This document shows, in pieces, positions 11,427 to 48,818 of a stretch of 51,060 nucleotides of DNA; positions within the stretch are counted from its first letter, which is position 1, and every line of letters starts with the position of its first letter. The notes below the pieces were generated by a model. That model had not been told where the DNA came from, did no database searches, and saw nothing but the letters and a program-made list of their open reading frames with translations. The position numbers and the translations under genes were made by a program. The stretch is from Chloroflexota bacterium (lineage in GTDB: Bacteria > Chloroflexota > Anaerolineae > Anaerolineales > Villigracilaceae), in contig JACRLB010000025.1 of assembly GCA_016235445.1 (NCBI GenBank), forward strand, positions 1 to 51,060, written 5' to 3'.

Positions 11427-11456
11427 AGCGGCAGGTCACGAATGTGACCTGCCGCT
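11427..11456 (+). terminator. Perfect 13-bp hairpin between the DUF2892 and DUF1858 genes
   Basis: AGCGGCAGGTCAC and its exact reverse complement enclose a GAAT loop, ending 14 bases before the next ATG at 11471. No T run follows, so complete intrinsic termination is doubtful. An mRNA-stabilising or attenuating stem is as likely. Confidence 0.65.
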
Positions 11457-11470
11457 GGAGTATTTCTGAA

Positions 11471-11701
11471 ATGGAAATTACAAAAGACACACGTGTCTCT
11501 GCCATTCTCGAAGAATACGGCGACATCGCCGACGTGATGGAAGTCTTCGGCGTCAAACGCGTGGGACGCTACTCCCTGCGAATGCTGGCGGCGAAGGCGG
11601 TCACGGTCGAATGGGCGGCGCGCATCCATCGTGTGCCACTTGCGGAATTTCTCGATATTCTGCATCAGGCAACGACAAATAAAAAGTCTATTGAGACTTA
11701 A
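11471..11701 (+). CDS. DUF1858-domain protein
   Basis: This 76-residue soluble protein starts at 11471 (MEITKDTRVSAILEEYGDIADVMEVFGVKRVGR). The segment RVSAILEEYGDIADVMEVFG is typical of DUF1858, a small helical domain commonly found next to DUF2249, hemerythrin or haem-sensing proteins. The usual CxxC-like cysteines of some members are absent. I placed the start after the hairpin because the frame upstream of it runs through the stem. The next gene follows within 10 bases. Confidence 0.78.
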   Translation: MEITKDTRVSAILEEYGDIADVMEVFGVKRVGRYSLRMLAAKAVTVEWAARIHRVPLAEFLDILHQATTNKKSIET

Positions 11702-11707
11702 AGGAAT

Positions 11708-12082
11708 ATGTCAATGAACATGTCACTGAATCAAGTCGCGTCTGTTCTCGCATTTATCATCGGTATCATGTCCATCGTCGCGGGCGGAAAAGCCATGCAA
11801 GGCTGGAACCCTGGTTACTCTGTTCTCACGTGGCTTCCCGTCTATAACTTCGTAATGGGAATTCTGGCTCTCATCCCCGCCGTTTTGATTTGGATGAATC
11901 ACCGTTACGCGCTGATCGCATCCATTGCGGCATTCGGTGTCCATGCAATTGTGTTATTGATTCTCTTCACCGCCTTTCGTAACACCGTTGCATATCAAAG
12001 CCTTGCTGCCATGATGTTTCGCCTGGTCGTCTGGATTGCCATTCTTGCGCTAATGTACTTTCAAGCGCGGAAGGGAATATGA
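11708..12082 (+). CDS. Four-helix membrane protein at the end of the plus-strand operon
   Basis: This 124-residue protein (MSMNMSLNQVASVLAF) has four membrane helices and one charged turn (IWMNHRYAL). No conserved metal-binding pattern is clear. It is the last plus-strand gene before the convergent nar locus, with 73 bases between the two stop codons and no strong terminator seen. The function is unknown. Confidence 0.72.
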   Translation: MSMNMSLNQVASVLAFIIGIMSIVAGGKAMQGWNPGYSVLTWLPVYNFVMGILALIPAVLIWMNHRYALIASIAAFGVHAIVLLILFTAFRNTVAYQSLAAMMFRLVVWIAILALMYFQARKGI

Positions 12083-12155
12083 TCACGCCATTGCTCACGC
12101 GGATATGAGCTGCCCAATGGATGAAGGCAACTCATGTTCGACCTTAAAGTATTAA

Positions 12156-12416
12156 CTACTTGGTTTTCCCAATCAGGACGCTCCACACTTCTGGACCCTT
12201 CTCCACATAGTCCCATGTGAACTGATCTGTGCGCTCCGCCTGGAATTGATAATACAAAGGTTTGGGGTCGTGATCGTTGACAAGCAGGAAGTTTTCGCCT
12301 GGTTGCAATGCTTCAAATGTTTCGAAAATGCGTTGATGACGATACATTGGCGCAAGTGTGCGCACGTCAACGGTTGTTTTGGGTGTATTTGTGGTGGATT
12401 GTAAATCGCTCATCAT
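12156..12416 (-). CDS. DUF2249 (TusA-like) protein
   Basis: This 86-residue protein contains the family pattern VDVRTLAPMYRHQRIFETFE, then LVNDHDPKPLYYQFQAE and a C-terminal VWSVLIGK. The DHDPKPLYYQ segment is diagnostic for DUF2249, a TusA-like fold found in denitrification and hemerythrin neighbourhoods. Two ATGs lie side by side at the start and either may be used. It is the last gene of the long minus-strand nar locus and follows the FmdE-family gene by 12 bases. The biochemical role is not established for this family. Confidence 0.88.
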   Translation of the reverse strand: MMSDLQSTTNTPKTTVDVRTLAPMYRHQRIFETFEALQPGENFLLVNDHDPKPLYYQFQAERTDQFTWDYVEKGPEVWSVLIGKTK

Positions 12417-12428
12417 AATGCTCCTGTT

Positions 12429-13037
12429 TCAATTGGTTTGTGATTTGATGGAAATTTCACTTGATGCTTGTAAATAATATGAATATCCAGCACAAGCCCT
12501 GCACAATGTAGTTCCTTCGTGCATCACTTCCCTCTGGTTGATGATCTCTTCGCCACAGGCTTCACACATCACACGTTTCCCTGGTTGACCGATGATTTGC
12601 TTCACGGAGACAGTCAGCTCCACCCACTGACAATGAAATAGTAATTCATCTGGAATGTGTTGATAGCCGATGAGTTGTGATTCCCATTTGTTGCGTGCGG
12701 AAGGCGCGTACTCCCATGCCAATTCTCTTGCGTTGTTGCGCGGCGAAATTCGAATGGTTTGTTCGGTGAGTGTATCCACAAAGGTTGCGGCAGTCTTGCC
12801 GTAGTCTTCGATGCGCAGGGTGCGATGTCCAACCGTACAGGCTGTGGCGGCTTCGATGCCGTCGGCGAAACAGCCGTCGGTTTCGAGGATGACCAGCAGG
12901 CGTTTGTCGCGGCGCGGGAGTTCCATCCCCAGCGCCGACGCGCCCGCCAACCCGATGCGCGCGCCGAGAACCTGCCGCGGACAGAGATGGGTATGACGCG
13001 ACGCGCTGACCTTCAGGATTTCGTCAAGGGTCTGCAT
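12429..13037 (-). CDS. FmdE-family protein with C-terminal zinc ribbon
   Basis: This 202-residue protein has an FmdE domain. HTHLCPRQVLGARIG (residues 15-29) holds the conserved histidine and cysteine, followed by LETDGCFADGIEAATACTVGHRTL, the usual cysteine-rich core. The C-terminal CEACGEEI and CRACAG pairs form a four-cysteine zinc ribbon. The family is named after formylmethanofuran dehydrogenase subunit E but is widespread outside methanogens, often beside molybdenum enzymes. Here it follows the second NarK gene by 7 bases, so a link to molybdoenzyme function is plausible but unproven. A decayed relative is present at 32974-33290. Confidence 0.88.
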   Translation of the reverse strand: MQTLDEILKVSASRHTHLCPRQVLGARIGLAGASALGMELPRRDKRLLVILETDGCFADGIEAATACTVGHRTLRIEDYGKTAATFVDTLTEQTIRISPRNNARELAWEYAPSARNKWESQLIGYQHIPDELLFHCQWVELTVSVKQIIGQPGKRVMCEACGEEIINQREVMHEGTTLCRACAGYSYYLQASSEISIKSQTN

Positions 13038-14412: not shown

Positions 14413-14426
14413 TTGTTTCTTATCTC

Positions 14427-14480
14427 GCGTAGGGCGCGTTCTCTCACGCGCCCATTGGCGTTAGAGAACGCGCCCTACGC
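14427..14480. repeat. 18-bp perfect inverted repeat between the two narK genes
   Basis: GCGTAGGGCGCGTTCTCT and its exact reverse complement are separated by 18 bases, giving a strong stem. The right arm touches the stop codon of the upstream transporter. No T run follows on the minus strand. It looks like a mobile palindrome of the REP kind and may also modulate read-through between the two transporters. Confidence 0.85.
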
Positions 14481-15802
14481 TACGAGGGTTTTTCACATCC
14501 CTTGCGGGTGTAATACTGCCAGTTGACGGCGGTGGCGATGACGAAGAAAACGACCAAGCCGTAGAAGAAAATGACGGGCGAGCCTGTATTCGTGATCGAA
14601 GAACCAATTAGCATGGAGAAGATGAAAGGTCCGTACGCCGCGACGCCCGCCGTCCAGCCGATGACGCCCGCGCCCTGACGCGGATTGTCGGCGAAGATGA
14701 TCGGGAACTGGCGGAAGGTGGAGGCGTTGCCGACGCCCGCGACGAAGAACAGCAGGAGCATGAGCGTCACGAACATTGGGAATTGATCGAGCGAAGACGG
14801 AGTCAACAAGCCCAGGAAGAGCATCGCCAGTGACGTGACGGTGAGAAGGATGCCCGTGATGTGAGTCAGGATCGCGCCGCCGAATTTGTCCGCGACGGGA
14901 CCGAACAACGTCCGCGCGAGGGAACCAACCAGGGGACCGAGAAAGGCATATTTCAGAGGATCAGGCGCCCCGTCGAAAGAGCCGTAGAGGTTTTTGATCA
15001 GGAGCGGGAACGCAGCGGCGAGTCCAGAAAAGGAGCCGAAGGTCATCAAGTAGGTGATGGTGCAGAACCAGGTGTGCTTGAGTTTGAAAATGTCCAGTTG
15101 CTCTTTGAACGAGGCTTTGATGGGAACGCTTCTCAAGAAGTTCCACGCGACCATGCCGCCGATGACCAGAAACGGGGCATACCAAAATGCCGCGTTTTGA
15201 AGCCAGACGGATTTAGTTGTGTCGCCGATGACCAGAGTCTGCGAAGAGCCGAGCGCGGCGATGCCGATGATCCAGGGCGTGATGAATTGCGCGAGGCTGA
15301 CGCCGAAGTTGCCGATGCCCGCCTGCACGCCCAGCGCGGTGCCTTGCATGTTTTTCGGGAAGAAGAAACGCGTGCTCGGCATGTACGATGAGAAGTCGCC
15401 GCCGCCGAAGCCTGCGGTAAACGCGAGAACCATGAATACCCAGAACGGCGTGTTGAGATTCATCACAGCCAGACCGATGCCGAGGCAGGGGATCAATTTC
15501 AGAATCGTCGTAAAAGTGATGACGTGCCGCGTGCCATAGATGGGAATTAAAAACATGTTGATGATGCGAAGCGTCCCACCCGCCAAGCCAGGCATTGCCG
15601 CCAGCCAGAATAATTGCATAGTGTCGAACTTGAATCCGATTTGGGGAATGCGCACGACGATGGCGCTCATCATGAACCAGGTGGCGAATGAGAAGGTCAA
15701 GCCAACGGTCGTGATGAACAATGTGCGCCAGGCGATTTTTTTGCCTGTGGATTCCCAAAATTCGGGGTTGTCGGGTTCCCAGTGTGTGAGCCAGGTTGAC
15801 AT
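14480..15802 (-). CDS. narK: NarK-type nitrate/nitrite transporter (MFS), copy 1
   Basis: This 440-residue MFS transporter starts at 15802 (MSTWLTHWEPDNPEFWESTG) with AGGAG about ten bases upstream; a TTG at 15823 would add seven residues. Twelve helices are predicted. The nitrate signatures are visible as GVQAGIGNFGVSLAQF and AGVGNASTFRQFP followed by GVIGWTAGVAAYG. The N-terminal WxPE-like stretch before helix 1 is common in NarK proteins of nitrate-respiring bacteria. It follows the hemerythrin gene by about 28 bases in the nar operon. Confidence 0.93.
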   Translation of the reverse strand: MSTWLTHWEPDNPEFWESTGKKIAWRTLFITTVGLTFSFATWFMMSAIVVRIPQIGFKFDTMQLFWLAAMPGLAGGTLRIINMFLIPIYGTRHVITFTTILKLIPCLGIGLAVMNLNTPFWVFMVLAFTAGFGGGDFSSYMPSTRFFFPKNMQGTALGVQAGIGNFGVSLAQFITPWIIGIAALGSSQTLVIGDTTKSVWLQNAAFWYAPFLVIGGMVAWNFLRSVPIKASFKEQLDIFKLKHTWFCTITYLMTFGSFSGLAAAFPLLIKNLYGSFDGAPDPLKYAFLGPLVGSLARTLFGPVADKFGGAILTHITGILLTVTSLAMLFLGLLTPSSLDQFPMFVTLMLLLFFVAGVGNASTFRQFPIIFADNPRQGAGVIGWTAGVAAYGPFIFSMLIGSSITNTGSPVIFFYGLVVFFVIATAVNWQYYTRKGCEKPS

Positions 15803-15830
15803 TGGGGATATGCTCCTATCCAAACTGTAT

Positions 15831-16280
15831 CTAAATCATGATCAACGGTGCGCGTCTCTGCGCCCATTGTGCGCCGAGGGCGGAGAGTTGCTCTTCGCCC
15901 AGGAATTGCCGCGCCATGCGGAAGAGAACCTGCTCCTCCTTTTGGAAGTGAGCGCGGCTGACCGCGATCATCTGCGCGGCGAGGGCGCGTCCCTGCTCCA
16001 ATTCTGTTGCGGATGCGATTTGCCCCAGCAGATTCACGATCTGGTCGTGTTCCATCCGCATGACTGCCAGAGGTCCGCCCTGCGTGCCGAGATGAGGTTC
16101 CAGCGCGGTGAAAAGCAATTCGTCTTCGAGACGGGCGTGGGCTTCGAGGGAGAATGAAAGCGGCGCGGCGCGGTTGGTCAACGCGGCGACCGTTTCAAGT
16201 GCGGGCAATGCCTTTTCGATATCTTGAAAGAGCAGGTAGAAAACGCCGTGTTCGCCGAGCAGCGCGTCTGTAATCAGCAT
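15831..16280 (-). CDS. Hemerythrin-domain (HHE) protein
   Basis: This 149-residue soluble protein starts at 16280 (MLITDALLGEHGVFY), five bases after the narI stop. A longer frame exists but would overlap narI extensively. The four-helix bundle carries the di-iron-type residues in GEHGVFY, EAHARLEDELLF, MRMEHDQI and RAHFQKEEQVLF. HHE proteins bind oxygen, NO or iron. Its place between narI and the nitrate transporters suggests protection of the reductase from NO or oxygen, or iron delivery. The upstream sequence has no good ribosome site, so it may be translated by coupling to narI. Confidence 0.9.
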   Translation of the reverse strand: MLITDALLGEHGVFYLLFQDIEKALPALETVAALTNRAAPLSFSLEAHARLEDELLFTALEPHLGTQGGPLAVMRMEHDQIVNLLGQIASATELEQGRALAAQMIAVSRAHFQKEEQVLFRMARQFLGEEQLSALGAQWAQRRAPLIMI

Positions 16281-16285
16281 GGAGG

Positions 16286-16960
16286 TTAATAATGCCGCGA
16301 TTTGTTCCAGATCACAACCTGGTGTTCGCGCCACAAATACGAGATGGGATAAACCAGCAAATGCACGAGGCGCGTGAACGGCAGGAGCAGGATGATGGTG
16401 AATCCGTTGATGAAATGGAACTTCACCCAAAACGGCAGCGCGGTGACCGAAGCAATATTCGGTTGGAACTTGAGGAGCGAGATCAGCCACGGCACGGCGG
16501 TGTGCAGGTACCAGTCTGAACCCCAGCGATAGTAAAATGCCACCCAGAATCCCAGCCCCACTTGAAGCAGTAAAACAATGAGCAACACCCAATCCAATTC
16601 AGATGTGACGGATTGCGCGCGTGCGTTCGCCATGCGGCGATAGAAAAGCAGAACCAATCCCACCGTCGCCATCAGCGCCAGCGACAGCCCTATGATCTCC
16701 AGCACATAGAGGCGGGTCTGGTTAGCGGTGAACAATCCCCACAAGCGAGGGAAGAGCAATGCCGTAATATGCCCAAGCAGAATGATGATCACACCGTAAT
16801 GCCACGGTACCGATCCAAAGAACAACACACGATTCTCCAGAAATTGCGATGACTGGCTTGAGTACGAATACGGGTCAAACCAGAACCGATAGATAGACAC
16901 GACAATCGCAATCACGACCGCGGCGTAGGGAAAGCCAATGAACAAGGCGTTATCGAACAT
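16286..16960 (-). CDS. narI: Respiratory nitrate reductase gamma subunit (NarI)
   Basis: This 224-residue dihaem b membrane subunit has five helices. Counting from the ATG at 16960, the haem histidines fall at 54 and 64 (WHYGVIIILLGH) and 182 and 200 (FHFINGFTI then RLVHLL), with the same 10- and 18-residue spacings as in E. coli NarI. I chose the ATG at 16960 over the adjacent GTG because GAGGAGG lies at good distance before it. It passes electrons from quinol to NarH. It sits in canonical order after narG, narH and narJ and is followed by a hemerythrin gene. Confidence 0.95.
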   Translation of the reverse strand: MFDNALFIGFPYAAVVIAIVVSIYRFWFDPYSYSSQSSQFLENRVLFFGSVPWHYGVIIILLGHITALLFPRLWGLFTANQTRLYVLEIIGLSLALMATVGLVLLFYRRMANARAQSVTSELDWVLLIVLLLQVGLGFWVAFYYRWGSDWYLHTAVPWLISLLKFQPNIASVTALPFWVKFHFINGFTIILLLPFTRLVHLLVYPISYLWREHQVVIWNKSRHY

Positions 16961-16970
16961 CACATCCTCC

Positions 16971-17600
16971 TCAGAAGGTCTCGGAGACCTTTAGGGTCTT
17001 GTCTGTTTCCAAGACGTTCAGGACTTGGAATTGATTTTGCAGGACGGAACGCAGCGCTTCCAACACGACCTGGAACTGGGTGCGCTTTTCGGGCTCTTTC
17101 TCCGCTTTGGGCGCTTCCTCCTCGTCGAAGCCCTCGGACTTGGCGCGTCCTGTCATGCGATCCAGCACGGGCAGGAGCGCGTCGCGGGCGATTTCTTCCG
17201 CCTGCGTATTGTCGCTCGTCATAGCAAGGAAGTGCAGGATGACGGCGAGATGATCGGGCAGTTCGTTGTCGGGAAAGGTAAAACCCTCCGCGCTGTAGCG
17301 TTGCTTAAGTTCCAGGAGAAAGATACTGCGCTTGTACGTCTCGCCGAACAGGTGATAGCCCACGTACGGATGACAAGCCGCGTCGAGATCGAACGTGCCT
17401 GTGTACACTTCTTCGAGTCGTCCAGGCGGCAGGGACGCGGCGTAGTCGTGAAATTCCTTCAACTGCGCGGCGGCTTGGGGGTCTTCGTCAATCAATAATC
17501 CCTGCGCCGTGATAGCGGCTTGAAGCGTCCCGCCCGCGGGGTATTCCAACATGCGCGCAAAGCATTGATACAACTTTCGTATTTCGACTTCGTTGTACAT
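16971..17600 (-). CDS. narJ: Nitrate reductase assembly chaperone NarJ
   Basis: This 209-residue protein starts at 17600 (MYNEVEIRKLYQCFARMLEYP), with GGAGG upstream. It has the all-helical TorD/NarJ fold: the PPGRLEEVYTGTFDLDAACHPYVGYHLFG stretch is the family hallmark, and the C-terminal quarter is charged and acidic. It guides molybdenum cofactor insertion into NarG in the cytoplasm. The last codons (KTLKVSETF and stop) lie inside a repeat that also occurs before narG, so the tail was probably supplied by a repeat insertion. Confidence 0.93.
   Translation of the reverse strand: MYNEVEIRKLYQCFARMLEYPAGGTLQAAITAQGLLIDEDPQAAAQLKEFHDYAASLPPGRLEEVYTGTFDLDAACHPYVGYHLFGETYKRSIFLLELKQRYSAEGFTFPDNELPDHLAVILHFLAMTSDNTQAEEIARDALLPVLDRMTGRAKSEGFDEEEAPKAEKEPEKRTQFQVVLEALRSVLQNQFQVLNVLETDKTLKVSETF
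16975..17000. repeat. Palindromic repeat copy forming the narJ 3' end
   Basis: AAGGTCTCGGAGACCTTTAG and the following GGGTCTT match bases 24908-24933 at all but one of 26 positions. The centre is a palindrome. On the minus strand it encodes the last codons of narJ. Confidence 0.85.
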
Positions 17601-17618
17601 TAGTGAACCTCCGTTGTC

Positions 17619-17771
17619 GTCATTGCGAGGAGGGTCGGTGGTCGAGTAGCGTTCTTTGCATACCGAGACCCCGACCCGACGAAGCAATCTCCTTGTCGTG
17701 GTGGGGATTGCTTCGCTCTGGTCTCGATACAGCGGAAGAACGCCGCCTACTCGACCATCGCTCGCAATGAC
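17619..17771. repeat. Long nested inverted repeat in the narH-narJ gap
   Basis: GTCATTGCGAG at the left is matched by CTCGCAATGAC at the right, with further paired arms inside (GTCGAGTAG with CTACTCGAC; CGAAGCAATC with GATTGCTTCG). The unit spans about 153 bases and could fold into one long stem. The CATTGCGAG/CGAAGCAATC words are typical of a widespread family of bacterial intergenic palindromes. It fills nearly all of the 180-base gap between narH and narJ. Confidence 0.85.
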
Positions 17772-17780
17772 AGATGATGG

Positions 17781-19295
17781 CTAGAACTTCCTCTTGGCGA
17801 TCTTGTTGCGGACACCGAAGCCCGCTTCTCTCTTGCGGTCGAGTGGCTTCTCCCATGCTTCCACCGCGACCTCACGCGCCAGCGGCGGCACGACGAAGCG
17901 TTCTTCGTAGGTGGGCAATGCGGTCAGGCGAAAGATGGATTCCACTTCGTCGGCGGTGGTGTTGCCCGCTTCGAGCGCGGCGTCCACTTCGGCTTGCTGA
18001 TAATCCTTCACCGTTTGCGCGCGCTTGAAGATTCGCACCGCGATCAGTTTGCGATAAACATCCTCGACCACTTTGACGTTGCCCGCTGAGAACATGCTTG
18101 CCATATACTTGATCGGCATGCGCGCCCTCTCAAGTGAACTCAACAAGGCAGGGAGGTTTTCGCTTTCCGCATCGCTTACGTCGTAGTTGCCGTCTTTTGT
18201 CTTGGCGAGCACGGGCAACATCGGTGGGACGTAGTACAGCATGGGCAAGGTGCGGAAATCGGGATGAAGCGGAAGGGCGAGTCCCCACTTTTTGACGAAT
18301 TTGTAGACAGGCGAATTCTGCGCGGAGGCGATCGTCGCGTCCGAGATTCCGTTGGCTTTGGCGGACTTGATGACTTCGGGATCGAACGGGTCTTGGATCA
18401 TGTTCCGTTGCGCGGCGACCAACTCCTCGTCAGGCACAGAGGCGCATTTTTCGATTTGATCCGCGTCGTAGAGCAGGACTCCCAAATAGCGGATGCGTCC
18501 CACACAGGAGTGGAAGCAGGCGGGGGGTTGTCCCGATTCGAGGCGCGGATAGCACAAGATACATTTTTCGGATTTGCCCGAAGCCCAGTTGTAGTAAGTC
18601 TTCTTGTACGGGCAGCCTGAAATGCACATGCGCCAGGCGCGGCATTTATCCTGCGCGATCAGCACGATGCCGTCTTCGCCGCGCTTATAGATGGCGCCCG
18701 CGGGACAGGCGGCGACACAACCAGGGTTGAGACAGTGATTGCAGATGCGCGGCAGGTAGAAGAAGACCACCCGCTCGAGTTCGTTGAGTTGCTCGCGCTC
18801 ATCGTCGGTGAGTCCGTCGAGGTTGACATCGTTGCGGGCGTAGATGGGCGAGCCGCCGAGATCGTCGTCCCAGTTGGGTCCCGCTTCGATGTTGTCCATC
18901 GGTTTGCCCGTGACCATCGAGATGGCGCGGGCGGTGGGCTGGTCGTCGCCTTCGGGCGCGTTGAAGAGATTCTCGTAGTCGTAGGTCCACGGCTCGTAGT
19001 AATCGTCGAGCGTGGGCAGGAAGGGGTTGTAGAAGATGTTGCCCAGCCCTTTCAGACGGCTGTGCAGTTTTAGTTTGAGGTCGCCGTTTTTCTTCTCCCA
19101 GCCGCCTTTGTATTTTTCCTGGTCTTCCCACAGGGTAGGATAGCCCGTGCCAGGCTTGGTCTCGACGTTGTTCCACCACATGTACTCGGTGCCTTTGCGA
19201 TCCGTCCAGATGTTCTTGCAGGCAATACTGCACGTGTGACAGCCGATACATTTATCAAGATGAAAGACCATTGAAACGTGTGAACGAATATCCAT
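17781..19295 (-). CDS. narH: Respiratory nitrate reductase beta subunit (NarH)
   Basis: This 504-residue iron-sulphur protein has the four cysteine groups of NarH: CIGCHTCSIACK near the start, CNHCLNPGCVAACP, CRAWRMCISGCP (tryptophan in place of a cysteine gives a 3Fe-4S cluster) and CILCYPRLESG followed by CFHSC. It relays electrons from NarI to NarG. Length is normal for the family. AAGGAG precedes the start. In canonical operons narH follows narG directly; here a beta-helix gene lies between them. Confidence 0.96.
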   Translation of the reverse strand: MDIRSHVSMVFHLDKCIGCHTCSIACKNIWTDRKGTEYMWWNNVETKPGTGYPTLWEDQEKYKGGWEKKNGDLKLKLHSRLKGLGNIFYNPFLPTLDDYYEPWTYDYENLFNAPEGDDQPTARAISMVTGKPMDNIEAGPNWDDDLGGSPIYARNDVNLDGLTDDEREQLNELERVVFFYLPRICNHCLNPGCVAACPAGAIYKRGEDGIVLIAQDKCRAWRMCISGCPYKKTYYNWASGKSEKCILCYPRLESGQPPACFHSCVGRIRYLGVLLYDADQIEKCASVPDEELVAAQRNMIQDPFDPEVIKSAKANGISDATIASAQNSPVYKFVKKWGLALPLHPDFRTLPMLYYVPPMLPVLAKTKDGNYDVSDAESENLPALLSSLERARMPIKYMASMFSAGNVKVVEDVYRKLIAVRIFKRAQTVKDYQQAEVDAALEAGNTTADEVESIFRLTALPTYEERFVVPPLAREVAVEAWEKPLDRKREAGFGVRNKIAKRKF

Positions 19296-19389
19296 GTAGT
19301 TACTCCTTTATCAAAATAATTTCACGAGTTCGTTGCGCCGCGGACACCTAGCCGCCCACTGCATGTTGCACGCTGTGCTAGGCGCACAC

Positions 19390-21093
19390 CTACTCTATTG
19401 GACGAATTTGAGTTAAGAGTCGCTTCATAGGATCGGGTAGATAATCCTTTATAAGAGCGATGACTCGTAACCAGGGCTTCTGAATAATCAATTTGTTACA
19501 GGTCGGAATGGTTTTGCAGTTAATGGATTGAGATACATTGCTCTGGATATCATATCCGCCAGCAACGTTGTCTTGGTATGTAATTGGCCCTACAAAATCT
19601 GACTCTCCATCAGCCAGATAGGGTTTGCATGGATCATCCACCTCAGGTCCAGGTTGGAGATGGTTTTGGGTTTCGAACTTTTCAATGATCTCGCCTGGAC
19701 AATTGCCCTCCATGATATTATCGCGCACACATACTTTGCCAGGCTGGTATGCATATGTTTTGTATGCATAATACTTGCCTTCTGAGTTCTTACACCCTTT
19801 AATTCCTTCGTGATCGACAATTGCCGTGACAAGAATGCACGGTAATTTATCTTGGCGACTGTCATTTCGGAAAATGTTATCAACCACCTCACATGACTCT
19901 GCCCCCGCAATTGCCATAAATGCATAACGCAATGGATTGCCTTTTGCATCTTGGGGATTGGGTGCCTCGCGTGGTAGGTATCCAAAGTTTCTTTCAAATC
20001 GCATATTCTTTGGGCGGCTCCGCTGTCCTGGTATCATCCCGCAGTAAAAGAAATCTGAGGCTGGGTATCGACTTTCCTCGATATACCACCTACCATCCTT
20101 CCCTGGTTGTCGCTCCAAAACATTGCCAATGAATTTGTTATTGCTGCCACTGAATGCTCCAATCCGAGATTGAAGCCCTTTGGCATAGTTGAATTGAACG
20201 ACACAATCACTGCATGCTATTAACGCAATGGCATCATCTTTGAATCCCTCAATGTAGTTGTTCTCAATCACCAAAGACCGCGTGAATCCCTCGTCTCCTC
20301 TTTGACCACCCCCAATGTTGATAGCTGCACCTCCGCCTCCGTTGACTGTTATTTTGCCTTCGGAATTGCGGAATGGACGTGGTTCTCCATAAGCTGCGCC
20401 GAATAATTTGCAGTTTCTGATTACCCCGTGATTCAAGGCGGGCGAGGGGTAAAATGAACCGCTATACCAATGAGTTGGCTGACCGCCACCTATACAATTG
20501 CCTCCATTGATATGCTCGATAGGGCGAAGATCAAAAATGCAGTTTTCGATGACAAAGTTTTCTGCACGATGAAGCATAATCATGTTACCGAGAGATGGTT
20601 GTTCCTTGTACTCTTTAAATTGTGCGATCACTTCTCCCCTCGCCTCATCCCAAAGTTTCATCATTTCAACGAGTACAACTTGGGATTCTTGGTTGCTTTG
20701 TACTGTACCATCGCATTTGCCATTCGCCGTGACCCGTAATGTAATATTCCTAATCTGCCCTGTCCATGCTCTAAGTTCTCCTCCAAATGCAGGAATTCCA
20801 AAGTTGATCCAGAATTCTTTGAAGTGTGGGATAACACGAAAACCAAGGTCTCGATCCGCGCTTAGATCGCTATCAAGCTCAATAATGCTGTTATTTACGC
20901 TTTTGCCTTCGATGGTTACATTGCCGTAAAGGAATAAATTCCTTGTTATGCGGACAGTAGTGTTTTCAGGGATGATTACTGTGAGCGAGTTATTGCTGGC
21001 TTTATAGAGACACTTCTGGAAAGACACGGTATCATCATCCATACCGTTTCCACTAAAGCCTCGCAAATCTTTTACATTGATAGTATTCGCCAT
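19390..21093 (-). CDS. Right-handed beta-helix protein (pectate-lyase-3-like) inside the nar operon
   Basis: The 567-residue protein starts at 21093 (MANTINVKDLRGFSGNGMDD). The start NVKD...GMDDDTVSFQKCL resembles the opening of the Pectate_lyase_3 beta-helix family. The body shows repeated short strands with asparagine ladders (LVIENNYIEGFKDDAIALI, then CVVQFNYAKG). No signal peptide or membrane helix is present, so it may stay in the cytoplasm. The DNA is visibly richer in A and T than the flanking nar genes, which suggests transfer. It is co-oriented between narG and narH. No catalytic residues were identified. It could be a polysaccharide-active enzyme, phage- or surface-related, or a structural protein. 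Confidence 0.82.
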   Translation of the reverse strand: MANTINVKDLRGFSGNGMDDDTVSFQKCLYKASNNSLTVIIPENTTVRITRNLFLYGNVTIEGKSVNNSIIELDSDLSADRDLGFRVIPHFKEFWINFGIPAFGGELRAWTGQIRNITLRVTANGKCDGTVQSNQESQVVLVEMMKLWDEARGEVIAQFKEYKEQPSLGNMIMLHRAENFVIENCIFDLRPIEHINGGNCIGGGQPTHWYSGSFYPSPALNHGVIRNCKLFGAAYGEPRPFRNSEGKITVNGGGGAAINIGGGQRGDEGFTRSLVIENNYIEGFKDDAIALIACSDCVVQFNYAKGLQSRIGAFSGSNNKFIGNVLERQPGKDGRWYIEESRYPASDFFYCGMIPGQRSRPKNMRFERNFGYLPREAPNPQDAKGNPLRYAFMAIAGAESCEVVDNIFRNDSRQDKLPCILVTAIVDHEGIKGCKNSEGKYYAYKTYAYQPGKVCVRDNIMEGNCPGEIIEKFETQNHLQPGPEVDDPCKPYLADGESDFVGPITYQDNVAGGYDIQSNVSQSINCKTIPTCNKLIIQKPWLRVIALIKDYLPDPMKRLLTQIRPIE

Positions 21094-21219
21094 TTTTTCA
21101 TCCTTTATTGCGGGTAATAAATAGCACCTAACTCTTATTGGGTGTCGTGGCATTGACCTAACGCGGGGATCATTGTTTCGGGGTCTATCTTGGTTGCCAT
21201 TTGGTGTACCTCTCGCTAC

Positions 21220-24200
21220 TCACCACTCCAACTTTTCCATCTTCCTCACCACGCAATACGTATCGCGCGTGAAGACGCCAATGGGCCCCCAATAGTTGAA
21301 GCCGTAGGTGAACTGGGCGTAGCCGCCCGCCAGCAGGACGGGGTTAATGCGCGTGCGCGTCAGGCTGTTATGTCCGCCCGCGCGCTTGCCCTTGCGGATC
21401 TGCGACTTTGGGATGAAGACAGTGCGCTCGACCGCGTGATAGTACAGGCACGTGCCAGGCTGGACGCGGGCGCTGACCGCGGCGCGCGTCACGACCACGC
21501 CATTGTCGTTGTGGACTTCGACCCAGTCGTTATCCACAATGCCGACGCTTTCGGCTTCCTTGTCGTTGAGCCAGACGGGATCCATGCCGCGCGAGAGCGT
21601 CAACATGCGGTGGTTGTCCTTGTAAGTGGAGTGGATGTTCCACTTGCCGTGCGGCGTGATGTAGTTGAGGATCAGGCTCTTATCATCCACGGGACTGTTC
21701 ACGATGTCGCCGATCTTCTTCCAGTCGCCTGGCTTCGAGACCAGTTTGGGCTTGAAGGTCGGCAGGTTCTCGCCGAAGTCCATGTAGTAGGGATGGTCAA
21801 TGTAGAAATGCTGGCGTCCCGTCAACGTGCGCCAGGGGACGCGCCGCTCCACGCTCAGGCACCAGGCGGCGTAGGCGCGCCCATCCTTGACGATGCCCGA
21901 CCAGCACGGACTGTTGAGCGTGCGCCGCACCTGCCGCGTCAGGTCGAAGAAGGTCATGCGGACGCTGCGATCGTTTTCGGCGAGATCCGCCAGAGGCATT
22001 CCGACCCGCTCCTCCTCATGTTTGAACGCCTCATAAGCGACTTCGCCGTTCGTTTCGGGCGCGAGATACAACAGGACGTTCGCCGCGTCGAGCGCGTCTT
22101 CCAACGACGGATATTTCTGTCCGCCCCATTCCACGCAGCGCAAGTGACGCGGGTCGGGCGAGCCGCCGACGGGATTCCCCAGCAGGTCGTCGTAGAACTT
22201 TGCTATCGGAATTTGCACGCCGTTGCCGTTGATACCGTCCGCGCGCAGGTTCGGTCCGAGCGAGATGAACTTGTTGTACAGGTTGGCGTAATCGCGCTCG
22301 ACCACGCGGAAGTGCGGCATGGTCACCCCAGGAACGGGATCGCATTCGCCCGCGCGCCAATCTTTCACATCGGGCTGGGAAAGTTCGTCGGGCGTGTCGT
22401 GCATGAGCGGCGACATCACCAAATCTTTCATCGGTTCGGGGAATACGTCCGCCGAAAGTTCGCTGACTTTCTTCGAGAAGGCTTTGAAGATTTCATAGTC
22501 TGTCTTCGATTCCCACACGGGCGGTACAGCCTGTCCGAGCGGGTGGACGAACGAATGCAGGTCGGTGGTGTTGAGGTCGTTCTTCTCGTACCAGAACGCG
22601 GCGGGCAGGACGATGTCCGAATACAGCGCGGAGGAGTCCATGCGGAAGTTGAGGTCCACCACGAGGTCCATTTTGCCGCGCGGCGCAGGCTCGGTGAATT
22701 TGACGGTCTTGACCTTGTCCTTCGCGTGCTCCTCGGCGATGATGTTATCGTGCGTGCCGAGATAGTGACGCAGGAAGAACTCGTGTCCCTTGGCGCTGGA
22801 TTGAATCGCGTTGCCGCGCCAGATGATCCAGACACGAGGCCAGTTCTCTTTCGCGTCGGGGTCGTCCACCGCGAATTCGAGCTTGCCGTCCTTCAATTGT
22901 TTCGCCGCCCATTTGGAGACTTCATCCGCAGACTTCGCGCCTGCGGCTTCGGCGTCCTTCATCACGTCGAAGGAGTTGGTCTTGAACTGCGGGTAGTACG
23001 GCATCCAGCCCATGCGGACAGCCATCGCCTCCAAATCCATCGCGTGTCCCTTTGCCCATTTGGTCTTGGGCGGCACGTGCGCGTAATCGGTGAAGTCGCC
23101 TTCATAACGCCACTGGTCGCTGTTGACGTAATGCCACGTCGGGGATTGCTGTCGGCGCGGCGGCTTCTGCCAGTCGAGCGCGAACGCCAGACTCGTCCAC
23201 GGCGCGACAAGCGTCAGTTTTTCCTGTCCCACGTAATGGTTCATCCCGCCGCCGTTGACGCCGCAACAGCCGCACAGAATCAGCGCGTAGATCGGCGCGC
23301 GATAGACGAGATTGTTGTTGTACCAGTGATTGATACTTGCGCCGATGATGATCATGGATTTGCCGTTCGTGGCTTCGGCGTTGGAGGCGAACTCGCGCGC
23401 GAGACGGATGACCGTGTCGCGCCCAATGCCCGTATAACTTTCCTGCCAGGCAGGTGTGTACGCGCCAACCTCATCGTAACTGGTCGGGTAATCGCCAGGC
23501 AGTCCGCGGCTCACGCCGAATTGCGCCGCGACCAAATCAAAGACGGTTGTGACAAGTTTCTTCCCTTCGCTGGTCTCGATATATTTCGCGGGGATGCCGC
23601 GCAGGGCGGTGGTCTTCTCCGCAAATTCATAGAACGCGACGTTGACCGTCTCGTCCTGCGAACCGAGAAATGAAAGCGTCGGCTCGATGGGCGAGTCATC
23701 CAGTCCGTCTTCCATCTTGATATTCCACTTGCCTTTTTCCTTGCTCCAGCGGTCGCCCACCGCGCCTTTGGGCATGCGCGGCTCATTGTGTTTCGCGTCG
23801 TGGACAAGGAACTTCCAATCGCCGTTCTCCACGTCCTTGTAGCGTTTGACCGTGTTGGCGCGGATGTAACGTCCCGCCTTGTAACCGCCGCCGTCCTTTT
23901 CCAACTCGATCAGGAACGGCATGTCGGTGTTCTCTTTGAGATAGTTGACAAAATATGGGACTTGGCGATCGGCGTAATATTCCTTCAAGATGACGTGATT
24001 GACCGCCATCCAGATCGCCGTATCCTGCCCCGCCTTGACGGGGATCCACCAATCGGAATATTTCGCCACCTGCGAGAGGTCTGGCGCGATGACGACGAAC
24101 TTCGCGCCTTCGTGCCGCGCCTCGGCGACGAAGTGAACGTCGGGCGTGCGCGTCATGTTCAGGTTCGCGCCCATCGAGACGATGTACTTGCTGTTGTACC

Positions 24201-24876
24201 AATCGGCGGATTCGCACACGTCGGTCTGGTCGCCCCAGATTTCGGGGAAGGCGTTCGGCAGGTCGGCGTACCAGTCGTAGAAACTCATGTTCACGCCGCC
24301 GAACAGTTGCAGGAAGCGCGACCCCGCGCCGTACGAAAGATACGACATGGCGGGAATCGGCGAGAAGCCGAAGACGCGGTCAGGTCCGTATTTCTTCGCG
24401 GTATAGAGGTTTGCCGCGGCGACAATTTCCAACACCTCATCCCAATTCGTGCGGCGGAATCCGCCCTTGCCGCGCGCCTTCTGGATGCGCTTGCGCTTCG
24501 CCTCATCCTCGATGATGGACGCCCACGCTTCGACGGGACCAAGTTTGAACCTTGCCTCGCGCCAGAAATCCAGCAACACGCCGCGCGCGTACGGATACTT
24601 GACGCGGATCGGGCTGTAGACGTACCACGACGCCGAGATCCCGCGCTGACAGCCGCGCGGCTCGTAGGGCGGCAATCCCTTCTCCAGCAACGGATAATCC
24701 ACCTGCTGCATCTCCCACGTGATAATGCCGTCCTTGACATAAACCTGCCACGAACATCCGCCCGTGCAGTTCACCCCATGCGTACTGCGAACAACGTTAT
24801 CGTGCTGCCAGCGGTTGCGATAAAACTCCTCCCACTGGCGAGCTTGCGGGTTGATCAAATCCTGAATCCAACTCAT
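21220..24876 (-). CDS. narG: Respiratory nitrate reductase alpha subunit (NarG), molybdoenzyme
   Basis: This 1218-residue catalytic subunit reduces nitrate to nitrite. The N-terminal FS0 cluster ligands are H33, C37, C41 and C76, with the same spacing as E. coli NarG. The segment FYDWYADLP then [19 protein letters not shown] carries the region of the molybdenum-ligating aspartate. No twin-arginine signal is seen, consistent with a cytoplasm-facing enzyme. GGAGG lies before the ATG. Close relatives include nitrite oxidoreductases, so reverse activity cannot be excluded, but narJ, narI and two NarK genes in the locus favour nitrate respiration. Confidence 0.96.
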
Positions 24877-24899
24877 GGTGAATGCCTCCGTTTGTATCC

Positions 24900-24932
24900 A
24901 GACCCTAAAGGTCTCAGAGACCTTTAGGGTCT
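24900..24932. repeat. 16-bp inverted repeat between cytochrome c and narG
   Basis: AGACCCTAAAGGTCTC and GAGACCTTTAGGGTCT are exact reverse complements separated by one base. The element lies in the 60-base gap before narG. A near-identical copy makes up the 3' end of narJ. A hairpin here could limit read-through from the cytochrome gene or protect the narG message. Confidence 0.88.
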
Positions 24933-24936
24933 TTGT

Positions 24937-25782
24937 TTATTTCTTGGTTGATGCGGCAAGTGTCCGCTCGATCATCGGTCTTCGCACGCCTTTTAAGCGT
25001 TTGCCCCAATAGACCTGCGCCAGCGCGATCAACGCCGCCGCCCCAACGATGGCAAGCAACGCGATCTGTAACAACGCTCCAGGCTCGCGTCCCGAAACGG
25101 ACGCGTTCTTCATGAACGCAAACAGGTCAGCCTGTTCCTGCGGGGTGAGCGGCGTATTCTTCCAGACCGCGTTCATGGTCACAGTGGGCGGGGAACTTAG
25201 GAACGCCGCCAGACCATCGCCATATTTGGTGAAGCCGTTAGCGGTCAAGTCAGGACCGAGATTCCCGCCGCCCAGCGACCCGATCCCCGCGATGCTGTGA
25301 CATGACATGCACTGCGGTCCGCCGTTCTCGAAGCGTTTATCGCCGACGAAAAACGCTTTGCCCGTCACTGCGTTACCCGTTGGGAGCACACTGCCGCCGA
25401 TGGTCGCGCCACTCCCCAGGTAGGAAAGAAGCGTATTCACCTGATCGGGAGTCAATCCCAGGTTGGGCATGGGAACCTTGTTGTAGGTATTGAACAATTC
25501 GGTGGCAATCGGATCGCCCGAAGCCAGCACCTGATCGGGCGCGAGCAGCCATTGGGTCAGCCATTCGTTCGAGCGGTTGTCCGTTACTCCCGCCAGGTCG
25601 GGACCCACCAGTTTCCCGCCGCCAATCGTATGACAAGCCACGCACTTCTCCTTGAAGAGCGCCTCCCCATCAGACGCCTGTCCAAGCGGTTGTGCGAACG
25701 TGACCCCAGTGACCGTCGTCACCAGGGCGAACACGAGCAACGGAACAAACCAGATGGTTGAAGGTCTTTCACCTTTGGTCAT
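24937..25782 (-). CDS. Membrane-anchored dihaem cytochrome c
   Basis: This 281-residue protein has a signal peptide or anchor at residues 10-30 and two haem c sites, C47-V-A-C50-H51 and C158-M-S-C161-H162, each in a small cytochrome domain with a downstream methionine. One membrane helix lies near the C-terminus (ALLQIALLAIVGAAALIALA), followed by a basic tail. It is thus anchored outside with both haem domains extracytoplasmic. The stop-to-start distance from the pseudo-receiver gene is 3 bases. Placed immediately before narG, it may feed or drain electrons at the membrane, as NarC-like cytochromes do in some nar operons. Confidence 0.9.
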   Translation of the reverse strand: MTKGERPSTIWFVPLLVFALVTTVTGVTFAQPLGQASDGEALFKEKCVACHTIGGGKLVGPDLAGVTDNRSNEWLTQWLLAPDQVLASGDPIATELFNTYNKVPMPNLGLTPDQVNTLLSYLGSGATIGGSVLPTGNAVTGKAFFVGDKRFENGGPQCMSCHSIAGIGSLGGGNLGPDLTANGFTKYGDGLAAFLSSPPTVTMNAVWKNTPLTPQEQADLFAFMKNASVSGREPGALLQIALLAIVGAAALIALAQVYWGKRLKGVRRPMIERTLAASTKK

Positions 25783-25785
25783 CTC

Positions 25786-26163
25786 TCATTCACTCCTCTC
25801 ATTGGAAGGGTTTTTTATTTCGGGCAAATTGCGGATGGTTTCCAACAAATCGGTGCCGCGCGCAGGCAGGATGTGAGTCGAATGCACGCGCACCACGTTC
25901 TCGGTCAGCCCTGCGCGGATGATTGGAAGATTCGGATACGCCTCCATGATGACCGACGTCAAATTCGCGCTTGCCTCGCTCTGCGAATCTTCGTTCACGA
26001 TCACGACAACGTCGGGGCTTGCCTCTGTTATCCTCGGGCAGACCTCCTCCCCCGGTTCCCACGGTCCGATCAACTCAACATCCGCTTCGGCGCGCAAAAC
26101 CGTTTCCATGCTTTCGCCGAAAAGATGTTGGGAACACACCAGCAGTACGCGTCGTTTTGACAT
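25786..26163 (-). CDS. Pseudo-receiver protein (response-regulator fold without phospho-site)
   Basis: This 125-residue protein starts at 26163 (MSKRRVLLVCSQHLFGESME). The layout copies a CheY-like receiver: LLVCSQHLFGESM aligns with [13 protein letters not shown] of the NarL-type regulator encoded at 30351, and SPDVVVIVNEDS with [12 protein letters not shown]. The acidic pair is replaced by C10-S11 and the phospho-acceptor position by V56, so it should not be phosphorylated in the usual way. No DNA-binding domain follows. It is the first gene of the nar operon. It may sense by another means or act as a binding partner. C10 is a possible redox-sensitive residue. Confidence 0.75.
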   Translation of the reverse strand: MSKRRVLLVCSQHLFGESMETVLRAEADVELIGPWEPGEEVCPRITEASPDVVVIVNEDSQSEASANLTSVIMEAYPNLPIIRAGLTENVVRVHSTHILPARGTDLLETIRNLPEIKNPSNERSE

Positions 26164-26221
26164 GACCTGTCTCAAATGAAACGAAAAAATTTCTTCAAGA
26201 GTACTGGAAAACACAGTGCAA

Positions 26222-26313
26222 ACGAATCCCTCCCCCTCCTGCTTCGGGAATGAAAAAAGAGTGATTGTTAAATCACTCTTTCTGTGAAGGAATTAGTTCT
26301 TGTTTTGCAGTCG
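26222..26313. repeat. Terminator-bearing repeat, copy 1
   Basis: A ~90-base segment with the hairpin AAAGAGTGATT-GTTA-AATCACTCTTT (26256-26281). On the minus strand the stem is followed by TTT and C, so it can end minus-strand transcripts. A close copy lies at 26781-26871. It precedes the nar operon start at 26163 and follows the membrane gene at 26363. Confidence 0.8.
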
Positions 26314-47482: not shown

Positions 47483-48818
47483 ATGACAGAGATTCTAGCA
47501 CTTTTACAAAACATTGCGCCAGTTGTAAGCGCGACAAATTTGCGGCAAATGAGCCAGGCAATCTATGGCATGTTGATCAGCAATGGACGGATCACAATGC
47601 TGGAAATTTCACGCTGGACAGAGCGGGGGAAGTTACCGAACCATCCAGCGTTTGTACCATACGCCATTGCTCTGGCTACAAATCCAGTGGATCTTTTTTG
47701 TTAGCCAGTTACAAAAACCAACCCACGAATATATTGCGGCAGGCGATGAAGTGGTATTTGGCAAAGCAGGCAAAGAGACTTATGGAATTGGATGTTTCTT
47801 TTCCAGCCTGCAAAACCGAGTGATTCCTGGTTTATCGTTCTTTGTATTTTCAGTGATAGATGTCAAAGCGCGTCAATCGTATCCAATTCAAGCAGTTCAA
47901 ATAGTCAAAGAGAAAGAAGAGCGCAAGGCGAAGGGAAATAAAAAATCGGACAACTCAGAAAAGCGTTCTGTTGGCCGTCCAAAAGGCAGCAAGAATAAGG
48001 TTGACAAGCAGCCCGATTTGAGCCCTGAATTATTGCGGATTCAGCCCGTCTTACAGGCGTTTTTGGCGATTTTGAAAGGCGTTTTGGCTATACCGTATCT
48101 GGTCATGGACAGTCATTTCGGAAATTACCCAAGTGCTTGGATGGTTTTACAAACAGGTTTGCATTTCGTTTCAAAACTTCGCTCAGATGCTGCTCTATAT
48201 GAACCCTTTACAGGAAAATATGGTAGACGCGGCGCTCGCCCCAAGTATGGCGAAAAAGTGGATGTGCGCAAGATGAAAAAGAAATATTTGAAAAGCGACA
48301 AACAGGAAGACGGCATTCGTACGCAAATTTATCAAGCCGCTTTGCGTAACAAAGGATTTGCCTTCTCAATCAATGTTGTCGTCATCCTGAAAACTAACCT
48401 TTCAACACGCAAGCAAGCGCATATCATTCTATTCAGCACAGACTTGACGTTGCCCCATGAAAAACTCTTTGATTACTACACTCTGCGTTTCCAAATCGAA
48501 TTCAATTTCCGTGACGCCAAACAGTATTGGGGCTTGGATGATTTCATGAACGTCAAAGCACAAGCTGTGACCAACGCAGCTAATCTCTCTTTGTTCATGG
48601 TGAACTTCAGCTCTGTTCTTTTGCACCGTTATCGAGAACACAATCCTGAGTTCAGTGTTCTGGATTTGAAATCTCATTATCGCGGTTGCAGGTATGCTTC
48701 TGAGACAATAAAATTACTTCCGCAAAAGCCTGATGGCATTTTATTAGCTGAAATATTTGAACAAATTGCCCGTTTAGGCATGGTTCATCCTATTTTCGAA
48801 CCAATCCCTGCTTCATAA
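47483..48818 (+). pseudogene. IS4-family transposase, frameshifted at a G tract
   Basis: The first frame (47483 on: MTEILALLQNIAPVVSATNL) reads properly to ISRWTERG near 47629, where the homologous continuation SYRTIQRLYHTPLLW lies in another frame that then runs to 48818. The run of five G at 47625-47629 is the shift point. Removing one G or adding two would restore the reading frame. The C-terminal part has the IS4 signature Y-x2-R-x3-E-x6-K in YTLRFQIEFNFRDAK and DSHFGNYPSA with a catalytic aspartate. It could be a broken gene or need ribosomal frameshifting. Confidence 0.85.

Follow-up and report, generated by a model that had tools for sequence, protein, structure and literature searches.

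The genes of respiratory nitrate reductase usually lie close together, and most of the junctions measured in this study are short. What, then, is a 567-codon open reading frame (ORF) doing between narG and narH in a bacterium of the Chloroflexota, and does it belong to nitrate reduction or has it only come to lie there? The window, the whole stretch of 51,060 nucleotides that was analysed, is one contig (JACRLB010000025.1) of an assembly (GCA_016235445.1) of 4.13 Mb in 55 contigs that is 98.28% complete.

A low-GC3 gene inside a narGHJI operon

The minus strand of the window reads, in order, cytochrome c gene, narG, the 567-codon ORF (hereafter the insert ORF), narH, narJ and narI, and downstream of narI follow a hemerythrin-domain ORF (Table 1) and two transporters resembling NarK, which score below the cut-off of the NCBIfam model for the NarK family. 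The four subunit genes are co-oriented and all exceed the cut-offs of their NCBIfam equivalogs, as expected of a narGHJI operon. The original prediction, a gene of 567 residues lodged between co-oriented narG and narH, is borne out; both neighbours are complete and share one contig with it. The insert ORF starts with the ATG at 21093, or at an alternative start at 21153 that would give 587 aa. It is preceded by the ribosome-binding site AAAGGA, and the ATG of narH is still preceded by its own (given in Table 1).

Table 1. Features of the nar region (positions in the window).
Feature	Position	Strand	Evidence or remarks
c-type cytochrome gene, upstream of narG	24937..25782	-	PF00034, E 5.2e-18
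narG, complete	21220..24876	-	TIGR01580, 1484.9 bits (cut-off 1084.15)
narG-to-insert-ORF spacer, 126 bp	21094..21219	-	differs from the nearest relative's spacer; includes one flanking word and a 21-codon ORF
insert ORF, 567 aa, low GC3, possibly a cytoplasmic parallel beta-helix protein	19390..21093	-	ORF call, Pfam, composition
insert-ORF-to-narH spacer, 94 bp	19296..19389	-	contains the narH ribosome-binding site TAAAGGAG; RNA folding ordinary (z -0.3)
narH, complete	17781..19295	-	TIGR01660, 655.8 bits (cut-off 524.05)
narJ, longest reading; true start possibly further in	16971..17687	-	TIGR00684, 71.9 bits (cut-off 59.35)
narI	16286..16963	-	TIGR00351, 120.7 bits (cut-off 105.55)
hemerythrin-domain ORF, listed start overlaps narI	15831..16592	-	PF01814, E 2.2e-15

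The insert ORF has a GC content of 0.444 and a GC3 of 0.426, against 0.596 and 0.802 for narG and 0.572 and 0.747 for narH; in the seven other measured genes of the region GC3 is 0.69–0.80. The contrast extends to the genome. Of the 229 ORFs with 200 aa or more in 18 other stretches of the same assembly plus the window (403,785 bases; median GC3 0.615, sd 0.071) the insert ORF, ranked with its longer start (GC3 0.422), was the 4th lowest. The AT-richer composition that had been claimed for this gene thus stood up to the comparison of GC proposed along with it. Such a GC3 fits a recent foreign origin, short of proof. A low-GC3 DDE transposase ORF also lies at 47583–48818, close to the right end of the window.

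Little else was recognised around the gene. Rfam families were absent at gathering score from 15800–26300, tRNA genes from the whole window, and promoter and terminator patterns near the insert numbered 6 and 1 (4.3 and 2.0 in shuffles). Between narG and the insert ORF there is a short ORF of 21 codons (21135–21200, minus strand), possibly with its own ribosome-binding site; it could be the beginning of a further gene that was lost. An assembly artefact would agree with the presence of the insertion in one assembly only, but it would require two false joins, and the nar genes are complete at both junctions with well-placed ribosome-binding sites; we regard it as highly improbable.

A probable replacement of the narG–narH spacer

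The operon nearest to the one in the window (G507/L050, NarG 97% identical) has, instead of a gene, a 76-bp hairpin spacer, stop codon included. Identity with this relative breaks off at the stop codon of narG and restarts at the narH ribosome-binding site, which argues for a replacement of the entire spacer. An insertion of compositionally odd DNA, missing at this place in the nearest relative compared, is thus supported. Two similar words flanking the gene had been put forward as marks of that insertion. Both were found where described, one of them overlapping the last codons and the stop of the insert ORF. Under strict scoring their match was equalled in 8, 14, 74 or 119 of 2000 dinucleotide shuffles, a count that for a gapped local match varies with mismatch and gap costs; under looser scoring the alignment of the flanks was ordinary (553/1000 shuffles as good). 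Because identity with the nearest relative breaks outside the words, they lie inside the replaced segment and not at its breakpoints; a target-site duplication at the insert ends was rejected on this ground, and the words lose their meaning as insertion marks. An integron cassette or repeat ends were likewise rejected, as searches of the own genome with the flanking DNA returned, besides the flanks themselves, only short matches (E at least 0.3). DNA folding of the two flanks gave z values of -1.88 and -0.08.

The reading that we favour, with a probability of roughly two in three, is that a recently acquired and probably foreign gene replaced the whole narG–narH spacer and is carried as a passenger. 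Its direct support is the position of the gene, the intact neighbours, the odd composition, the absence from the nearest operon and the lack of any relative in our searches (below); that other genomes have unrelated genes in this slot also speaks for it. The acquired gene, whose product may be a beta-helix protein of the cytoplasm, would have taken the place of the entire spacer, perhaps by illegitimate recombination or through a mobile carrier since lost. It would be transcribed with the nar message and translated from its own ribosome-binding site, narH would be translated from the site it retained, and the passenger would be tolerated since neither the reading frames of the two nar genes nor the ribosome-binding site of narH suffered damage. 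A shift in the NarG:NarH ratio, as originally proposed, may or may not follow, given that narH retains this site. Counting against a passenger, the insert ORF is long, undamaged, in the sense of the operon and equipped with a ribosome-binding site, features that selection explains equally well.

The insert protein and the search for its relatives

The protein had been described as a beta-helix without a signal peptide. The latter part holds, as none is visible by eye at either start. As to the fold, PF12708 (Pect-lyase_RHGA_epim) matched the N-terminal part with 17 bits (E 0.0053), short of the curated cut-off of 27 bits for membership, and the Pfam Beta_helix match was negligible (E 5.6). Rung-like motifs, counted with a pattern composed after reading the protein, numbered 12, some overlapping; shuffled proteins averaged 2.6, and none of 5000 shuffles reached 12. 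NCBIfam and PADLOC searches gave no match, the latter leading us to reject a defence gene, and phmmer found no sequence relative in the PDB at E≤1. Structure prediction of the protein alone, which had been suggested as a check, yielded poor single-sequence models (mean pLDDT 34.1 at full length and 38.6 for the first 340 residues), with which Foldseek found no match at E≤0.001. A search of the own genome with PF12708 for further beta-helix genes gave one match (E 0.218), interrupted by stops. The rungs speak for the claimed fold, the profile match stays below its cut-off and neither model is reliable; the insert ORF possibly encodes a cytoplasmic parallel beta-helix protein, an assignment that is plausible but unproven.

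The weak N-terminal profile match and the repeated beta-helix-like rungs are shared with PF12708 proteins and phage tailspikes, from which the insert protein differs by its sub-cut-off score, the lack of a visible signal peptide and its nar rather than phage neighbours. This raises the alternative that the insert is what remains of a phage, or of some other element, with a tailspike-like beta-helix that was inserted with a target-site duplication. The best PHROGs match was a tail protein (E 0.0038, weak), five phage records matched weakly at E≤10 (E 0.9–6; two annotated as tail spike, one as tail fibres), tailspikes are named in the Foldseek lists (E 0.18–5.1), and there are the two flanking words. 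The phage and fold matches are all non-significant, however, and the Foldseek lists carry no weight because both structure models are poor. The insert has space for one gene of the size of the ORF, nothing else in it, shorter overlapping ORFs apart, was recognised as a gene, and the words are off the breakpoints, one overlapping the ORF stop. We consider a phage remnant unlikely.

Relatives were then sought more widely. The own genome holds a single copy of the insert ORF. A class-level draw of 395 other genomes, which included only part of the 152 genomes of the family, gave no match at E≤0.001; an overlapping phylum-level draw of 400 genomes gave 13 with a match at E≤0.1, the own genome alone at E≤0.001, and the other 12 matches were partial (about 40–110 residues, best E 0.0014). 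A peptide-pattern search, a method that detects close relatives only, found none in the GTDB contigs, nor did the same type of search in IMG/VR, or tblastn at 1e-5 against plasmids and phages. In the 182 gathered loci the protein was matched at 1e-3 only by those of the own genome.

The narG–narH junction in other operons

We surveyed the narG–narH junction in other genomes, as the original prediction had called for. Of the 152 family genomes 45 have a NarG at E≤1e-100; these, together with 77 NarG loci from GTDB, supplied the junctions that their contigs made it possible to measure. A narH copy entered the count if its match began no later than residue 5, its identity was 54% or more and its contig included 450 bases of the gene. 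Deduplication was on these exact 450 bases, by which near-identical copies (such as L010 and L013/L087) count separately; own-genome loci (L001, L002) were removed first, L037 was merged with the window, and the identical G061 and G449 were counted once. Junctions on truncated contigs (such as L055 and L056, present in the spacer folding set below) were left out.

More than 400 bp separated narG from narH in 6 of the 90 deduplicated junctions: 3/19 at a NarH identity of at least 80%, 2/28 at 70–80% and 1/43 below. The first class includes an Actinobacteria record from outside the clade (L078). Gaps of this size were found at none of 89 narH–narJ junctions and at four of 86 narJ–narI junctions, all four in the lowest identity class. 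The insert ORF itself was present in one of the 90. The survey therefore found genes in the slot of other operons, but not this gene. Elsewhere the slot holds a lipoprotein with a CarboxypepD_reg domain (L004/L059, in G061), a DUF4440 protein with a 1077-aa NHL protein (L032, in G497), a DUF433/DUF5615 pair on the opposite strand (L062), a hemerythrin (L066) or a haem-binding protein (L101). The first two cases resemble ours in that protein-coding DNA has entered this slot in an operon of the type found in the window. They differ in that the lipoprotein and the NHL protein have N termini that, judged by eye, look like those of exported proteins, and the proteins are unrelated, similarity among the contents of the three junctions being at chance level (blastn, blastp). 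Matches to the lipoprotein at 1e-5 occur in 27 of the 152 family genomes, G061 and G449 included and the own genome not among them; the remaining ones sit on other contigs or at other places. G061:C147 and G449:C94 have identical nar junctions and lipoprotein although their assemblies are assigned to two different genera, and are possibly one organism's contig in two bins.

Two records of other kinds came up. In Nitrococcus mobilis (L083) a DDE transposase ORF (11441–12868) follows a NarG-like gene 71% identical to that of the window, and no narH-like gene was matched within 7 kb downstream of it. In L104 and L107, records titled Bacteroidia and Saprospiraceae, about 800 bp lie between narJ and narI.

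These counts suggest that the narG–narH junction of this clade could be a recurrent landing slot for genes, with the insert ORF as one of several independent captures. This idea is compatible with the passenger reading, to which it adds a preferred place. At a NarH identity of at least 80%, unrelated genes occupy 3/19 narG–narH junctions against 0/36 at the two downstream junctions (Fisher p = 0.037, no tree correction), but the 19 include the non-clade record. In a quick NarG tree without bootstrap (58 rows, each with an identity of 70% or more and a match of at least 900 residues) the window's sister (SH-aLRT 99) is without an insert, and the other two inserts of the close clade are on sister branches; therefore two to three events suffice. 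Moreover, narJ–narI also gains DNA in distant operons (4/40), and the family's second, 62%-type operon has no narG–narH gap above 400 bp.

The folding of the gene-free spacers is a second point in favour of a landing slot. Most narG–narH spacers of the relatives are palindromic, with several sequences among them that are unrelated to one another, and at a NarG identity of at least 82%, 14 of 17 form strong hairpins (z≤-3; the exceptions are L087, L119 and L054). In a sample of co-directional spacers of 60–135 bp from the own genome 19/51 fold as strongly (p = 0.0018 for the difference between the two sets, no tree correction). One spacer palindrome is a dispersed repeat with 24 matches at 21 places in the own genome (0 for the reversed control), present in 7/8 genomes searched. 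The window has strongly palindromic spacers of its own, one separating the two narK-like genes (14413–14479, z -10.3) and one separating the cytochrome c gene from narG (24877–24936, z -5.0). Since so many own-genome spacers fold as strongly, spacer folding is largely a habit of the genome; this weakens a conserved hairpin function in the narG–narH spacer, a candidate we set aside, and counts against the landing slot, which we hold as a tentative possibility.

An extra gene at an alpha–beta junction already has a published precedent. In Nitrobacter winogradskyi nxrX, reported as a prolyl isomerase gene homologue, lies between nxrA and nxrB, and the order reported there, cytochrome c, alpha, extra gene, beta, J, gamma and narK, resembles that of the window (PMC4786786); a second paper also names nxrX as an accessory (PMC12815253). 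The open-licence literature yielded neither a gene between narG and narH nor a combination of beta-helix and narG. By analogy, the insert protein could be a real accessory that is made with NarG and aids cytoplasmic assembly of NarGH, and the lack of a visible signal peptide and the intact ORF would suit such a role. The protein, unlike nxrX, has no Pfam match to a prolyl isomerase, nor to a chaperone. Its composition is odd, and each of the remaining 89 deduplicated junctions either spans no more than 400 bp or contains different genes. Neither in its domains nor in conservation within the slot (1/90) does the protein qualify as an accessory of the nxrX kind. The proposal of a conserved nitrate reductase accessory is not supported here, as no relative turned up in the collections searched and other genomes have unrelated genes or a spacer only. 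We judge an accessory role improbable. A broader scheme, in which the junction of this Anaerolineales-related clade is a preferred slot for swapping hairpins and genes and some captured genes, the insert ORF included, were recruited to tune or scaffold NarGH assembly, appears to us speculative and quite unlikely.

Taken alone, the insert ORF, in our favoured reading a passenger, probably has a small effect. If the alpha–beta junction of this clade tolerates repeated capture, it would provide a natural test of how foreign genes are taken up without loss of subunit balance.
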